Assembly (NCBI GenBank): GCA_027490155.1
Contig: JAIXYP010000052.1
Coordinates: forward strand, 62,001-126,000
Length of the DNA: 64,000 bases
Source of the DNA: Cytophagaceae bacterium
Lineage (GTDB): Bacteria; Bacteroidota; Bacteroidia; Cytophagales; Flexibacteraceae
Direction: 5' to 3'
The notes beneath the pieces are model-generated. The model searched no databases and was not told where the DNA came from. It saw only the letters and a program-made list of their open reading frames with translations. Every line of letters starts with the position of its first letter. Positions within the stretch are counted from its first letter, which is position 1. Positions 28,227 through 33,583 of the stretch are shown here, one piece after another. Position numbers and translations under genes: made by a program.

Positions 28227-28262
28227 ATGAATCACGTAGCTGTAAACGCGATAATCAGATGA
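28227..28262 (+). CDS. Possible 11-residue leader ORF
   Basis: ATG at 28227 reads MNHVAVNAIIR then TGA, and the stop overlaps the ATG of the next gene (ATGA). A frame of this length could easily be chance. It is listed because the overlap would couple translation into 28259-28591. Confidence 0.15.
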   Translation: MNHVAVNAIIR

Positions 28263-28591
28263 ATTTGGTCAAGTACTACTTGCTTTTGGTGCTGATGGAT
28301 ATCATAATCGTTGGTATGTCCTGCGGCATTTACTTTGTGCTCCCAGCTGAGCTAGGTATCTTCTTCGGGATGATGTTTGTTTGGGTGTTAAGCCTTAGTA
28401 AACCATTCCTGCTAGAAAACTACTTGAGGCGCCGAAACGGCGGCATGCTATCATCTTTTATCCCACAGGGACCGCTTCCTTTTGACGGAAAAATTACAGC
28501 CAAGGCGCATGTTTTTTACGCCTTTCCTGTGTATTTTCTGACGATATGGATCAACTACTATCTGTATGTTAATTATTTGATTTACGTTTAA
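28259..28591 (+). CDS. Small integral membrane protein, unknown function
   Basis: 110 residues with about three hydrophobic segments: residues ~7-29, ~32-50 and ~88-108. A basic, polar loop lies between the second and third (LRRRNGGMLSSFIPQGPLPFDGKI). No family was recognised; the PxGPLPFDGK loop and the YAFPVYF motif are the most distinctive parts. It is 114 bp upstream of the ABC ATPase and in the same direction, so it may belong to the ABC locus. Confidence 0.65.
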   Translation: MNLVKYYLLLVLMDIIIVGMSCGIYFVLPAELGIFFGMMFVWVLSLSKPFLLENYLRRRNGGMLSSFIPQGPLPFDGKITAKAHVFYAFPVYFLTIWINYYLYVNYLIYV

Positions 28592-28705
28592 GTTGGTGGA
28601 GGTTGTAGCATAATTTCAATCTAAAGGTTAGGCGGACTTTTTTGTACGATCAATCAATGCAATAGGATTACTTTAGCCTAATTTATTAGCTCATTGCCAT
28701 CAAGC

Positions 28706-29416
28706 ATGATTCAAAAACCTAGTGGCAATCTAGCCATCAACAACCTAACCTACCAGTACAAAAAGTTCCGATTAGGGCCGATTGATTTTTCATTGGCCGG
28801 TGGGGAGCTCATGATCATCGTTGGCAACAATGGTGCGGGCAAAAGCACCTTGTTTCGACTGCTGGGTGGGCTGATGCGACCGCATGGAGGTGAGATCTTG
28901 ATTGATGGCAACCTTGTTCCATACCTCAATGAGGTGGTTAGTCTGGGGCTAGACCAGCACTACTACGATAAAAACGAGACTGTTAGGCATTGTCTAGCGA
29001 CGACATGTAAACGAAATGGGGTGGATATTGACACAATCATCCCCATGCTTCAGGACTTTGGATTAGATGCCTATCTGAGCAATCGGGTAGGCACCTTGTC
29101 GCTAGGGACGGCCAAGAAACTGACCATTATTTCAGCCCTTTCGCGCCAGACGGGTATCTATGTGCTGGACGAACCCAACAACGGACTGGACTATGAAGCA
29201 GTTAATGTGCTTTACCGCTACATCAGCCGATACCAACATGCCGGCAAAACCATCTTGATGAGTCTGCACCTTACAAACGGCAACGAACCTGTACCTAACA
29301 AGGTTGGGCTGATTAGGGATGGCCAAATGGTGGTTAATGACATCGATCAAGCCAACTTTGGCCAGGCGGACTTCAGCAAAATGGTATCTGATTTTTATAG
29401 CCAGACCAGGGTTTGA
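28706..29416 (+). CDS. ABC transporter ATP-binding protein
   Basis: 236 residues, a single nucleotide-binding domain. It has Walker A GNNGAGKST (~40-48), a Q-loop region GLMRPHGGEI, Walker B IYVLDEPNNGLD (~155-166) with the catalytic Glu, and H-loop LMSLHLT. The signature loop reads LSLGTAKKL instead of LSGGQ, a divergent form that keeps the Ser and the second Gly. It would power the membrane proteins encoded next: the stop is 1 bp before the ATG of the permease-thioredoxin fusion. An ATG at 28706 is chosen over a TTG four codons earlier. Confidence 0.9.
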   Translation: MIQKPSGNLAINNLTYQYKKFRLGPIDFSLAGGELMIIVGNNGAGKSTLFRLLGGLMRPHGGEILIDGNLVPYLNEVVSLGLDQHYYDKNETVRHCLATTCKRNGVDIDTIIPMLQDFGLDAYLSNRVGTLSLGTAKKLTIISALSRQTGIYVLDEPNNGLDYEAVNVLYRYISRYQHAGKTILMSLHLTNGNEPVPNKVGLIRDGQMVVNDIDQANFGQADFSKMVSDFYSQTRV

Positions 29417-29417
29417 T

Positions 29418-30635
29418 ATGTCCATAACCACTGCCTTTCGGGCCTGGATCTTGTTGTTGTTGGTGCTGTTGGTTTACCTCGCCTCGCTATACTATGCCAA
29501 TGTTGAGCATGGAGTTGAGGGGGCTACAAATGGTCTGTTTGCATTGGTTTTGCCCTATTTCACACAGTTTAGGCTGGTTTTGTTGTTTATTTTTGTCCTG
29601 CAAGACGTAGGTACATTCAGCCATCGAGCGGTCATGCGCCTAAAGCTTGATGGCCTTTCTGGGGCTCGGTTAGCTGACCATTGTTTGCGCCAGATGACGC
29701 TACGGGCTGTTGGCTTTAGTGCTATTTTCCCAGTAACGATCCTGATCTGTTACGCTTTTTTTGCCGCCAATTTTGCAGCATTTACATCATTTGGCGTATG
29801 GCTTTTTACGCTTAAAGTTTGGCTCAACATGGCTTGCTTGATGTTGGTTTTGAGCCTTGTGATGGCTGGGCTTAGCCAACTATTGTCACGTTACACAGTA
29901 ATGGCAATGGTTGTTGGCTATCTGGTGATCGATGCTAAAGTAGCCATCATGTTCAAGGAATTGCCACCGGTTTGGGTTAATTTTTTGTTGTATCAGCAGG
30001 TAGCACATCTGGAGCAGGAGTATTTAGTTTGGGGAAGCGTTGGGCTTGTATTGCTTGTGTTGTTGGCCCACTTGATGATTTTGGTTGTTGCTGATATCAA
30101 ACTTGAGCAAATGATTAGCAGGGCGGGACGGTGGCCTATAATGGTATTGGGTACTGTAATGGTTGTTTCGTTGGTTTTTCGCCCGTATGATTACTTTCCT
30201 GCTGATATGATTTTGCCAAAACAAACAGCGGTTGGTCTAAATACTAGTCGCTACCTAGTCATTAATTATTGGGCCTCTTGGTGCGGACCTTGCGTTGCCG
30301 AAATGCCTCAGTTGGCGAAGCTAGCTGATACCATTGAGCCCTCAAAAGCCCAGGTTATAGCCTTATCCCAAGACAAAGATCCTGCCGCTACTACCAAAAC
30401 CTTGCTTCAGCATCCAGACTGGGAAAGTAAAGGCATCCAGTTTATGGCCGTGCCCGGATCAGTACGGCATCATAATGCTTATCTATCCTTGCTAGAGGGT
30501 CAGTTTGAAGGAGTGGCTATTCCATTTACCTTGGTGACTGAAGGTCGGCAAGTACGGTATTACCATGTGGGTTTCTTGCCAGGCTCAGAGATTGCGGTTG
30601 CTAATTGGTTAAGGTCCAATCCTAACAAACAATAA
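29418..30635 (+). CDS. ABC-type membrane subunit fused to a TlpA-like thioredoxin domain
   Basis: 405 residues. The first ~255 form about seven hydrophobic segments (e.g. AWILLLLVLLVYLASLYYA, LVLLFIFVLQDV, MACLMLVLSLVMAGL, WPIMVLGTVMVVSLVF), as expected for an ABC-2-like permease. Residues ~265-405 are a thioredoxin/TlpA-like domain: strand YLVINYWASW, redox motif WCGPC (C289, C292), strand QVIALSQDKD and the cis-Pro loop GVAIPFTLVTEG. With an odd number of segments and the N-terminus inside, the redox domain would face the periplasm. A permease and a thiol oxidoreductase in one chain is unusual. The start at 29418 is preferred over an extension into the ABC gene. Confidence 0.85.
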   Translation: MSITTAFRAWILLLLVLLVYLASLYYANVEHGVEGATNGLFALVLPYFTQFRLVLLFIFVLQDVGTFSHRAVMRLKLDGLSGARLADHCLRQMTLRAVGFSAIFPVTILICYAFFAANFAAFTSFGVWLFTLKVWLNMACLMLVLSLVMAGLSQLLSRYTVMAMVVGYLVIDAKVAIMFKELPPVWVNFLLYQQVAHLEQEYLVWGSVGLVLLVLLAHLMILVVADIKLEQMISRAGRWPIMVLGTVMVVSLVFRPYDYFPADMILPKQTAVGLNTSRYLVINYWASWCGPCVAEMPQLAKLADTIEPSKAQVIALSQDKDPAATTKTLLQHPDWESKGIQFMAVPGSVRHHNAYLSLLEGQFEGVAIPFTLVTEGRQVRYYHVGFLPGSEIAVANWLRSNPNKQ

Positions 30636-30638
30636 AGC

Positions 30639-31346
30639 ATGAGACTAGCCCTGATATATACCGCACTTGCGACCTTGCTTGGTTTGTTTTTTGGCGTTTT
30701 CATGCCGATAACTTTTCCCACCTTAGCCAGCCTAGATACCAGCAGTAATCCTGGTATGTTCTTGCTAACTATGTTTGATCTTGAAGCACTGTTGTTCATC
30801 ATCGTATCGTTGTTGGCGCTCAGCAAAAAGTTAAACAATTACCTAATTTTACGTTCCCTGCTCGACGGTGCTACTGTTGCCCAAACCATTACAATCGTTT
30901 TGGTGGAGGTCCTGAAGCTCAGTATGGTCAGCACAGCAGGTTACCTGTTTTCCCGCCTTGCGGTTGCAGTCTCGGTATCTGTGCCTGCGCAATGGGATCC
31001 GTGGTATGAGGCATTATTTCATTGGTTGACAATAGGGGCACAGCTTTTCTATGGGTCGTTATTGATTGGCTTGATGTATGCCACGACGAGGATGTTGATG
31101 AAGGAAAAATTCTTTGGGTTAGGTTTGGTGCTGACCGCCATACCACATTTTTTGGTGTTGATTACTTTTAGTATGTCTGGCCTGAAAACAATGAACCATC
31201 TGATGGTATATTTTGGACCTTGCTTTATATTATTGGAAACTCCTTTTCCAGATTGGATATTTGTTTTTAGCTACGCCCTTGGATTGTTTTTACAGTTGAT
31301 GCTGTTGTATTGGTTGGTCCAGAAACGAAAATTTGAGATTGTATGA
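30639..31346 (+). CDS. Polytopic membrane protein, probable second transmembrane subunit
   Basis: 235 residues with about six hydrophobic segments: residues ~3-23, ~45-65, ~82-105, ~130-150, ~165-185 and ~205-228. Size and hydrophobicity pattern suit a second ABC-2-like transmembrane subunit, perhaps dimerising with the fusion protein 29418-30635, from which it is separated by only 3 bp. No sequence family was recognised. It overlaps the following gene by ATGA. Confidence 0.75.
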   Translation: MRLALIYTALATLLGLFFGVFMPITFPTLASLDTSSNPGMFLLTMFDLEALLFIIVSLLALSKKLNNYLILRSLLDGATVAQTITIVLVEVLKLSMVSTAGYLFSRLAVAVSVSVPAQWDPWYEALFHWLTIGAQLFYGSLLIGLMYATTRMLMKEKFFGLGLVLTAIPHFLVLITFSMSGLKTMNHLMVYFGPCFILLETPFPDWIFVFSYALGLFLQLMLLYWLVQKRKFEIV

Positions 31347-31798
31347 GAAAGCTTGTATTCTACTTCATTGGGTTGGTGGGCGTCCTCGTTATGCTAATTG
31401 GCTTTCGGTATTCGACTGGTCTTTACTATCACCATGAGCCAACTAGTTTTTTTGTTGGTGATGAAAAGAGGCTTTTGGATGCTGACACCAGTACGATCAT
31501 TTTGGTGGAGAATGCTGAGGATCAAATGTCCACATCTTTTGTCCAGCACCTGGATAGCGTGATGAGTCATCGAAAGCCCACACACCCCTTAGTGGTTGTC
31601 AGTTTGTTGCCATATGCTCCTCCACCAAGTGTACGGTTAAGGAACCTCAAGGTAACAAATGACTACAAGCTCTATTGCCAGGCTGAAAACATCATCATCA
31701 CTTATCAATTAGCTCCTCAATTTATAGCTGAAAATGCCATCTATGGTATTGATGTAGTCCATGGTCGTGTACAAAGTGCTAAGTTGCTATTAAGATAA
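31343..31798 (+). CDS. Small membrane-anchored protein of the ABC-thioredoxin locus
   Basis: 151 residues. One N-terminal membrane segment (residues ~4-21) is followed by ~125 soluble residues that would be periplasmic. The soluble part has strands STIILVENAED and HPLVVVSLLPY flanking a helix. This is vaguely thioredoxin-fold-like but without a CxxC; the only Cys is in LYCQAEN. Function unknown. Its start overlaps the stop of the preceding membrane gene (ATGA), so it is the last gene of the four-gene unit 28706-31798. Confidence 0.7.
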   Translation: MRKLVFYFIGLVGVLVMLIGFRYSTGLYYHHEPTSFFVGDEKRLLDADTSTIILVENAEDQMSTSFVQHLDSVMSHRKPTHPLVVVSLLPYAPPPSVRLRNLKVTNDYKLYCQAENIIITYQLAPQFIAENAIYGIDVVHGRVQSAKLLLR

Positions 31799-31946: not shown

Positions 31947-31969
31947 TAGTTGCAACATTGTTGCAACTA
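31947..31969. promoter_or_regulatory. 23-bp perfect palindrome, candidate Zur/Fur-family operator
   Basis: Arms TAGTTGCAACA and TGTTGCAACTA are exact reverse complements around a central T at 31958. The right arm contains the -33 TTG of the promoter for 31995-33583, so a bound repressor would block transcription. The genes controlled (a MerC-like protein and a COG0523 GTPase) belong to families often under the zinc repressor Zur. Assignment to Zur rather than another regulator is inference. Confidence 0.7.
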
Positions 31970-31990
31970 GGTTTTTTACGCTTACATTTG
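31961..31990 (+). promoter_or_regulatory. Promoter of the MerC-COG0523 operon, probably leaderless
   Basis: TTG at 31961-31963 and TACATTTG at 31983-31990 are separated by exactly 19 bp, the Bacteroidota -33/-7 geometry. The -7 box ends 4 nt before the ATG at 31995, so the transcript would begin at or beside the start codon. Confidence 0.7.
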
Positions 31991-31994
31991 CCCC

Positions 31995-32393
31995 ATGACA
32001 ACGGATTCGAAGACAAAGAGCGCATCATGGGCCAGCCTCAATAGGTTTGGGGTCTTGGTTTCGGGCCTCTGTCTTTGTCATTGTTTGGCTGCACCTATGA
32101 TAATGGTCATGGCTCCAATGGTGCTATCTCCGGGTATCAACCAGGTCATTCAGTCCATTTTCGTGCTGCTGGCTATTGGCGTTACCTTTTGGACTGTTAG
32201 GTCAAACGGGATCTGGCGCGCAAGGAGCTTTCTTTTGCTGACGGGTATGTGCTTGGTCTTGGCAGAGCTACTACTTGATTTTGCAGACCTTAGCCAACCA
32301 TGGTTAGGCTACGTTGGCGCTTTTGCACTCATCTTTTCTCACATTCGGAACCTTTTTACTTGTCGAGTATGTCATCAAGATCACAATCACTAA
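31995..32393 (+). CDS. MerC-domain membrane protein
   Basis: 132 residues with about four hydrophobic segments. A Cys cluster lies in the first one (SGLCLCHCLAAP, C26, C28, C30), and a metal-ligand-rich C-terminus reads CRVCHQDHNH. This is the MerC-like family; classical MerC moves Hg(II) across the inner membrane, but chromosomal relatives without mer genes, as here, probably handle another soft metal such as zinc. No merR, merA or merP is nearby. It overlaps the following COG0523 GTPase by 25 bp and sits behind the palindrome 31947-31969. Confidence 0.85.
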   Translation: MTTDSKTKSASWASLNRFGVLVSGLCLCHCLAAPMIMVMAPMVLSPGINQVIQSIFVLLAIGVTFWTVRSNGIWRARSFLLLTGMCLVLAELLLDFADLSQPWLGYVGAFALIFSHIRNLFTCRVCHQDHNH

Positions 32394-33583
32394 TCCCTGT
32401 TACTGTGTTATCAGGTTTTCTCGGTGCCGGGAAGACTACTTTACTCAATCACATATTGCATAACAAAGCGGGTCTTAGGGTAGCTGTTATTGTTAATGAT
32501 ATGAGTGAGGTCAATATCGATGCACGCCTTGTTGCCAAAGAGCATACCCTCAGCCACACGGAGGAGAAGCTCGTCGAAATGAGTAATGGTTGCATCTGTT
32601 GTACGTTACGCGAAGATTTGATCCTTGAGGTGGAAAAACTTGCGCTAGAGGGCAAGTATGACTACCTCTTGATCGAGAGTACCGGTATTAGTGAGCCGGT
32701 ACCAGTTGCCCAGACCTTTACTTTTGTATCCGAAGATGGCGCTATTGATCTTAGTCGGTTTACACGCTTGGACTGTATGGTAACAGTCGTGGATGCGTTT
32801 AATTTTGCTAAAGACTTCGGATCTGTAGCTACTGTTGCAACAGCTGGCTTACATGCAGAGGATCCGAATGATCACCGTCCGATAGTCAATCTGTTGACTG
32901 AGCAAATCGAATTTGCCAATGTGATTTTGGTTAATAAGTCTGACGCTGTTTCAGACCAAAAGATGGGTGAGCTTCGTGGTCTGATTACGAGTCTGAACCC
33001 GCGTGCTAAAGTGTACACAACCTCGTACGGGAAGATAGAGCCGGACTTGATCCTGAATACATACCTATATGATCAAGGCGAGGCAGAGCAAAACCCATTG
33101 TGGCAAGCAGAACTTGACAAAGTACATGTGCCCGAAACAGAAATGTACGGGTTTTCTTCTTTCGTTTACAAATCAAAAAAGCCATTTCATCCCGCTAGGT
33201 TCTGGCAGTATATTAATGATAATTGGCCGGCAAATGTGATCCGAAGCAAGGGGCTCTTCTGGATTGCTAGCCGTAAGGATGTAGCCCTATCCTGGAGCCA
33301 AGCAGGTGGTTCGTTACAGACGACAGAGGCAGGTGTTTGGTGGGACTCGATGCCTAAGGCAGAACGTCGACTCTATCCAGAATATCTCAATAATCAGGCC
33401 CAGATTGAGCATAGCTGGCATCCAATCTTTGGTGATCGGCAAACAGAATTGGTCATCATCGGACAGGATCTGAACGAATCATTCATCACTGCTGAGCTAG
33501 AATCTTGTTTGCTCACGACCGAGGAAATGATCAATTGGCAAAAAGGAAAACCATTTCAAGATCCTTGGCCTGAACAGCTCTAA
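32369..33583 (+). CDS. COG0523/CobW-family metallochaperone GTPase
   Basis: 404 residues. Walker A is LSGFLGAGKTTLL (~14-26). The hallmark metal-binding CxCC is at C75-I-C77-C78 in NGCICCTLREDL. The Mg/GTP segment is LLIESTGISEP (~96-106), the guanine-specificity motif is VNKSD, and a C-terminal CobW_C domain begins near 265 (EMYGFSSFVYKSKKPFHPARFW). These GTPases insert or deliver metals, and Zur-controlled members act in zinc starvation (ZigA/ZNG1-like). The ATG at 32369 is chosen because the frame upstream only overlaps merC. It is coupled to the MerC-like gene. Confidence 0.92.
   Translation: MSSRSQSLIPVTVLSGFLGAGKTTLLNHILHNKAGLRVAVIVNDMSEVNIDARLVAKEHTLSHTEEKLVEMSNGCICCTLREDLILEVEKLALEGKYDYLLIESTGISEPVPVAQTFTFVSEDGAIDLSRFTRLDCMVTVVDAFNFAKDFGSVATVATAGLHAEDPNDHRPIVNLLTEQIEFANVILVNKSDAVSDQKMGELRGLITSLNPRAKVYTTSYGKIEPDLILNTYLYDQGEAEQNPLWQAELDKVHVPETEMYGFSSFVYKSKKPFHPARFWQYINDNWPANVIRSKGLFWIASRKDVALSWSQAGGSLQTTEAGVWWDSMPKAERRLYPEYLNNQAQIEHSWHPIFGDRQTELVIIGQDLNESFITAELESCLLTTEEMINWQKGKPFQDPWPEQL

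Follow-up and report, generated by a model that had tools for sequence, protein, structure and literature searches.

A compact ATP-binding cassette (ABC) transporter operon, in which one membrane protein is fused to a thioredoxin domain, lies in a 64,000-nucleotide stretch of DNA (the window) from a Cytophagaceae bacterium (NCBI GenBank assembly GCA_027490155.1, contig JAIXYP010000052.1, positions 62,001 to 126,000 of the forward strand). The open reading frames (ORFs) bear out the layout given in a preliminary description of the stretch, namely four genes packed with spacings of 1 bp, 3 bp and an ATGA overlap and a further small gene 114 bp upstream. The protein types named there were likewise recovered by Pfam searches and Kyte-Doolittle hydropathy: an ABC ATPase, a fusion protein with seven transmembrane (TM) segments ahead of the thioredoxin domain, a second polytopic protein and a protein anchored by one TM segment. 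The match to a characterised transporter family that the preliminary description named as a refutation was not obtained: the only curated families scoring over their cut-offs are the broad ABC and thioredoxin domains, and P0003, P0004 and P0005 have no Pfam or NCBIfam family at E ≤ 1. An alternative TTG start at 28694 would lengthen the ATPase by four residues. Membership of the P0005 gene in the operon unit is uncertain. The features are summarized in Table 1.

Table 1. Positions of the operon genes and of the parts of the fusion protein within the window.
Feature	Position	Strand	Basis
Small membrane protein P0005, 110 aa	28259..28591	+	ORF; ATPase start 114 bp downstream
ABC ATPase P0002, 236 aa from ATG	28706..29416	+	ORF, Pfam domain, motifs
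Permease-thioredoxin fusion P0001, 405 aa	29418..30635	+	ORF; starts 1 bp past ATPase stop
Permease domain of P0001, residues 1-234, six TM segments	29418..30119	+	Hydropathy
Seventh TM segment of P0001, residues 236-254	30123..30179	+	Hydropathy; predicted to take the chain to the periplasm
TlpA/ResA-like thioredoxin domain of P0001, residues ~270-400	30225..30617	+	Pfam, PDB sequence matches
Active site of P0001, C289-G-P-C292	30282..30293	+	Translation; same in sister species
Second polytopic protein P0003, 235 aa	30639..31346	+	ORF; 3 bp past fusion gene
Anchored protein P0004, 151 aa	31343..31798	+	ORF; ATGA overlap with P0003 gene

The sole close relative found is a locus (L009, CANHWS010000023.1) in the metagenome-assembled genome Cytophagaceae bacterium RE-27jun17-70, referred to here as the sister species. 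All five ORFs occur there with lengths equal to those in the window and a single terminal stop each, and the fusion protein is 94% identical across all 405 residues. Presence of the same fusion without insertions or deletions rules out a frameshift or assembly artefact as its source, and the separate thioredoxin gene that would have spoken for a sequencing frameshift is not seen in the homologous locus. The fusion is real and is maintained in two species. Amino acid identity is 98% for the ATPase and 81% for the less conserved P0005. The dN/dS values, which are point estimates from one species pair without a significance test, are 0.044 for the ATPase, 0.147 for the second permease, 0.168 for the fusion, 0.227 for P0005 and 0.290 for the anchored protein. 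Cysteines of all operon proteins occupy identical positions in the two species, the gap ahead of the ATPase gene is 114 bp in the window and 113 bp in the sister species, and the same helicase gene precedes the run in both. Of the 11 family genomes sampled, two belong to this genus; the helicase is present in 4 of the 11. Behind the helicase of G113 lie an antisense thioredoxin-like ORF and further ORFs to the contig end, and the operon is not there. Two side observations concern the same comparison. A non-coding block of 45 bp upstream of the P0005 gene (28172-28216) shows no difference between the two species, whereas the gene itself reaches 86% identity; the block has no Rfam match. Within the fusion gene, dS between the species is 0.068 over the thioredoxin part (30204-30632) versus 0.221 over the permease part; the numbers are small, and the low value is possibly due to chance or local recombination.

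Residues 276-328 of the fusion score above the Pfam cut-offs for Redoxin (35.7, cut-off 26.6), AhpC-TSA (32.6, cut-off 26) and Thioredoxin (26.9, cut-off 23.5). Together with the active-site sequence WCGPCVAEMP, the Redoxin and AhpC-TSA matches place the domain among TlpA/ResA-like proteins. The NCBIfam cut-offs for TlpA, ResA and DsbE (230, 170 and 123.15) were not reached, the scores being 39.6, 29.2 and 26.0 bits. Sequence matches in the PDB are headed by protein disulfide-isomerases, followed by DsbE-like, TlpA and ResA chains. The domain is predicted to be periplasmic from the TM count, hydropathy and loop charge: a Lys/Arg-bearing loop (226-235) precedes TM7, the thioredoxin domain lies behind TM7, and the charges fit a cytoplasmic TM2-TM3 loop. 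This predicted topology supports the periplasmic placement of C289 and C292 suggested in the preliminary description. A reductant appears to be at hand, because the same genome encodes DsbD (PF02683, 103 bits against a cut-off of 27.1) in a 753-aa ORF with a TM core and a C-terminal CVNC. The domain is regarded as a putative periplasmic reductase in view of its predicted topology and the presence of DsbD.

The ATPase matches Pfam ABC_tran (PF00005) with 73.6 bits against a cut-off of 25, which identifies it as an ABC transporter ATPase. It carries the Walker A motif (GNNGAGKST), the signature (LSLGT), Walker B (YVLDEP) and the H-loop residue H188. The usual Q-loop glutamine position is occupied by D83; an Asp is also found there in the nearest ATPase of the same genome, a paralog (G000:C25) with 30% identity that lies ahead of a single permease, and a Glu in an ATPase from another genome (G290) whose permease partner is a Pfam ABC-2 protein. 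LanF-type ATPases carry Glu at this position. The best NCBIfam model is TIGR03740, the gallidermin-type lantibiotic protection ATPase (LanF), with a score of 98.9 bits where 309.75 are required, so that the protein falls short of assignment as a LanFEG ATPase. ABCA4 stands on top of the PDB relatives. Assignment to a defence system was rejected: 32 PADLOC families matched P0002 at E ≤ 0.01 (best mad3, 61.4 bits), which was read as general ATPase similarity, and no PADLOC family matched P0001, P0003, P0004 or P0005 at that threshold. As a separate observation, the paralogous ATPase and its single divergent permease (L123 8040-9648, contig C25) are kept in the sister species, and this permease was matched in just 3 of 375 order genomes.

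Kinship of the fused permease domain (permease 1) with ABC-2 proteins was approached through that paralogous permease. Permease 1 has a DG motif (LDGLS, residues 77-81) in the TM2-TM3 loop, and the paralog has DG in the same loop. The two align over most of their length with a score of 69, which was equalled by 27 and 24 of 2000 shuffles under two schemes, by 6 of 500 in a smaller test and by none of 40 other polytopic control ORFs. For the sister-species copy the corresponding counts were 12 and 38 of 2000. The paralog in turn aligns with the G290 permease at a level equalled by 0 and 1 of 2000 shuffles, and this G290 protein scores above the Pfam thresholds of ABC2_membrane_2 and ABC2_membrane_4. 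This two-step comparison makes a modest case that permease 1 is ABC-2-like. As to the ABC-2 system named in the preliminary description, permease 1 has a modest link through the paralogous pair, and permease 2 (P0003) shows no significant similarity to the ABC-2 proteins tried. An identification of permease 1 as GldF was rejected (1361 of 2000 shuffles equal).

An unfused counterpart was found in a genome from another family of the order (G006, L169 4912-7574, minus strand). The run there consists of an ABC ATPase, a 253-aa permease with a 4-bp overlap with the ATPase gene, a 192-aa TlpA-like protein after a 4-bp gap and a TetR-type regulator after a further 56 bp. Its permease scores 22.6 bits with PF12730, below the cut-off of 27, and its alignment with the G290 ABC-2 permease was equalled by 0 of 2000 shuffles. 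The loci surveyed for such pairings numbered 140, with 142 thioredoxin-like ORFs: 79 from the close-relative search, the 60 top-ranked other rows of the fusion search (with 4-kb flanks) and G006. Four of them, G006 included, have an ABC protein encoded on the same strand at a distance of no more than 2.5 kb, which is no estimate of frequency because the sample was picked by thioredoxin similarity. The other three are from Legionellales and have ABC-F type proteins of 634-662 aa with two ABC domains and no membrane part; one has an amino-acid permease nearby.

The operon is best read as encoding an ABC-2/LanFEG-like exporter to which a periplasmic disulfide reductase is joined, acting on a cysteine-containing substrate or on the complex itself, a reading given a probability of roughly 45%. 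It is supported by the gene packing, the intact motifs, dN/dS values far below 1 for the fusion kept in the sister species, the predicted periplasmic side of the thioredoxin domain, the presence of DsbD and the LanF-type best model, and further by the layout of one ATPase and two polytopic proteins, the acidic Q-loop residue, the link between permease 1 and the paralog, and the G006 run. In such a complex a single type of cytoplasmic ATPase, as a homodimer, would provide the drive, two different membrane subunits would pair, and the membrane-anchored periplasmic accessory protein would join them. The thioredoxin domain behind TM7 would be kept reduced by the DsbD of the cell. ATP-driven export or extraction would then hand a cysteine-containing substrate (a peptide, lipopeptide or thiol compound) to the reductase at the exit, where its disulfide would be broken. 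The gene layout, its conservation in the sister species, the ATPase motifs, the intact CxxC thioredoxin domain and the DsbD gene are observed directly; the topology, the subunit pairing, the direction of export, the reductase activity and a substrate shared by transport and reduction are inferred. A stronger form, in which peptide passage and disulfide reduction are mechanically coupled in one polypeptide and the anchored protein holds the substrate between steps, is unlikely; if true, it would define a class of ABC exporter that alters the redox state of an exported or extracted substrate.

Several results weigh against the exporter-reductase. No permease family reached a cut-off in Pfam or NCBIfam, and neither permease matches the ABC-2 Pfam families PF12679, PF12730 and PF12698 at E ≤ 1. 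The LanE and LanG models gave no NCBIfam match, with no family for the second permease at E ≤ 1 and thioredoxin-fold models alone for the fusion. A direct alignment of permease 1 with the Pfam ABC-2 protein of G290 gave no clear excess over chance (equalled by 118 and 157 of 2000 shuffles). Permease 2 resembles nothing tested: between 78 and 1001 of 2000 shuffles and 13 of 40 control ORFs gave equal scores, and the controls include its own ortholog, leaving 39 for this protein. AlphaFold2 modelled the fusion poorly (pLDDT 38); with this model, Foldseek ranked a thioredoxin-type protein and DsbE on top and TlpA lower, the best E being 0.0016 and none ≤ 0.001. The G006 permease is unlike permease 1 or 2 (639 and 421 of 2000 shuffles equal), and the G006 TlpA ranks only 24th of the 142 thioredoxin-like ORFs in similarity to the fused domain. 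Because of this dissimilarity and rank the G006 run is probably an independent pairing. It supports the idea that ABC-2-like export and a TlpA-type reductase are paired in function, and not a common descent of the operons. Finally, no gene for a substrate was found.

Permease 2 is presumed to be the partner of the fusion protein. It has five hydropathy windows over threshold, with a stretch (93-157) without clear segments, and a DG motif near the same place as that of permease 1, inside the third and weakest window. Its identification as GldF is unsupported (78 of 2000 shuffles equal). The anchored protein P0004 has one N-terminal TM segment and a remainder predicted to be periplasmic. A degenerate thioredoxin, hinted at by the order of strands and helices in a model of pLDDT 45, was rejected on profile comparison (1519 of 2000 shuffles equal), alignment with the G006 TlpA (173 of 500 equal) and Foldseek, which gave no match at E ≤ 0.001. 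GldG was rejected as well (670 of 2000 equal); a GldG-type protein (PF09822) is encoded elsewhere in the same genome. P0003 and P0004 each have a single cysteine, and both residues are kept in the sister species. Cys195 of P0003 is in a loop whose charge predicts a periplasmic location, and Cys112 of P0004 is in the predicted periplasmic part. These residues suggest a redox switch in which the thioredoxin domain acts on the complex itself, for example on a Cys112-Cys195 disulfide, and transport is gated by the periplasmic redox state. Conservation in only two sequences of 92-93% identity says little, however, and no structure brings the two cysteines close; such a switch is judged very unlikely.

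The preliminary description had proposed a search for short cysteine-rich precursor ORFs nearby in related genomes. Of small ORFs with at least two cysteines, the three intergenic stretches compared gave a 26-aa ORF in the window and a 22-aa ORF at a similar place in the sister species, which do not match in sequence. A search for a LanC-like protein (PF05147) gave no match in the window genome (0 of 1; the control was positive in 1 of 14), and no C39 peptidase match was found there. A home-made lantibiotic or C39-processed peptide is disfavoured by these two negatives, which leave solely defence against the peptides of others for a further explanation, namely that a LanFEG/BcrAB-like pump, the reductase and a LanI-like anchored protein extract and inactivate foreign antimicrobial peptides that bear disulfides. 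Such a role agrees with the lantibiotic-protection model as the best NCBIfam hit of the ATPase, with the TetR-type regulator that adjoins the G006 run and with the exporter and anchored accessory layout of NisFEG and NisI (PMC10257480). Given that the TIGR03740 cut-off was missed and that those neighbours of the operon which were searched include no recognisable regulator, it is distinctly unlikely.

The thioredoxin and ATPase matches also bear on a periplasmic maturation machine, modelled on the cofactor assembly roles of NosDFY, CydDC and TlpA-SCO. Here the ABC part would supply energy or a sulfur, heme or thiol compound, and the thioredoxin domain would keep reduced the pair of cysteines with which a client binds a metal or cofactor. 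The matches of the thioredoxin domain include TlpA in complex with ScoI and with cytochrome oxidase subunit II (4txo, 4txv), DsbD is present, and NosF is among the PDB relatives of the ATPase, but it lies far under ABCA4 as just one of many. The ATPase is moreover a separate gene, unlike in the CydDC half-transporters, and the metal-related MerC and CobW neighbours occur in the window but not at the corresponding place in the sister species. A maturation machine is judged unlikely.

Those neighbours, downstream of the operon (region 31950-33583), encode a MerC-like protein (31995-32393) and a GTPase of the CobW type; the pair is absent from the corresponding place in the sister-species locus. 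Ahead of the MerC-like gene and 3' of the operon lies a 17-bp palindrome, TTGCAACATTGTTGCAA, at 31950-31966. It can also be read as a terminator-like stem, and presumably resembles a site of the zinc-uptake-regulator type, as a candidate only.

The search for the fusion architecture in other Bacteroidota proposed at the outset recovered it in the sister species: the whole fusion occurs in 2 of 390 order genomes, both in one genus. Other matches listed in that search, in which at most four candidates were scored per genome in most genomes, cover the thioredoxin domain only; none starts before residue 155 and some reach the last TM region. Among 123 thioredoxin-like ORFs (131 loci), 9 have two or more TM segments before the CxxC, all nine being overlapping copies of the two fusion loci. 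The second permease was matched in 3 of 380 order genomes, the third match (G043) being antisense to a 388-aa gene. Permease domain 1 was matched in 5 of 395 phylum genomes, that is, the window genome and four others at E 0.002-0.008. None of the four seems to be a relative: one (L128) is antisense to a 311-aa gene, two (L129 and L131) lie within proteins of 712-724 aa that by eye look like FeoB-type iron transporters, and one (L130) is a frame with stops that spans two unrelated genes. The ATPase was found in 1 of 395 class genomes at E ≤ 1e-32, a limit too strict to say much. A plasmid search gave one permease 1 match at E 3 and none for the G290 permease, and 0 of 31 pattern matches in viral contigs were confirmed. 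Confinement of the fusion to one genus among the genomes searched, in an order where TlpA-like proteins with a single TM anchor are common, would fit neutral tethering of an ordinary TlpA to a membrane protein with independent transport and redox roles. Both parts are nevertheless conserved between the two species, at dN/dS below 1, and the G006 run places separate ATPase, permease and TlpA genes together; neutral tethering is judged highly improbable. An ABC exporter and a periplasmic thioredoxin normally form two machines, and here a natural covalent fusion of the two exists in two species. Together with the split run in G006 it suggests that transport and thiol reduction may serve one substrate or complex. 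The narrow spread and the lack of a substrate limit this significance; the fusion offers a compact construct for testing the coupling of transport and reduction.

The exporter-reductase can be compared with several known systems. GldAFG is the ABC system of Bacteroidota gliding motility and has an anchored auxiliary protein, a feature in common with the operon, but P0004 and GldG, and permease 1 and GldF, show no similarity beyond that of shuffles. LanFEG combines one ATPase with a pair of unlike permeases that are similar in size. The operon is alike in having one ATPase and two polytopic proteins and a LanF-type best model; it differs in an ATPase far under the model cut-off and in a genome with no LanC match. 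NisI is an anchored extracytoplasmic accessory of NisFEG, and in the excerpted account of that system (PMC10257480) no thioredoxin domain is mentioned, whereas the operon has one. With TlpA, ResA and DsbE the fused domain shares the WCGPCxxEMP motif, a membrane anchor and Pfam domains over cut-off; its anchor, however, is a polytopic transporter subunit and not a single TM segment, and the NCBIfam equivalog cut-offs were missed. CydDC has fused ATPase and membrane domains and is not known to carry a thioredoxin domain, whereas the ATPase of the operon is a separate gene. Work on CydDC connects this transporter with the provision of thiols and heme to respiratory enzymes (PMC4132815, PMC10374445). 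The G006 run is similar in its ABC ATPase, ABC-2-like permease and TlpA-like protein, but has a separate thioredoxin, one permease, a TetR regulator and no anchored protein. In the skf operon of Bacillus subtilis, the exporter SkfE/SkfF and a putative thioredoxin, SkfH, belong to one cluster, so that ABC export/resistance genes and a thioredoxin are grouped as they are here; the thioredoxin there has its own gene, and the cluster also encodes a precursor peptide and a radical SAM enzyme (PMC8172795). Neither of the latter is among the five ORFs, and radical SAM enzymes elsewhere in the genome were not searched. No report of a permease-thioredoxin fusion of this kind was found in the open-access literature, which is weak evidence as most subscription journals lie outside it. 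An ABC exporter with a covalently attached periplasmic thioredoxin would be a new fusion variant built from known parts.

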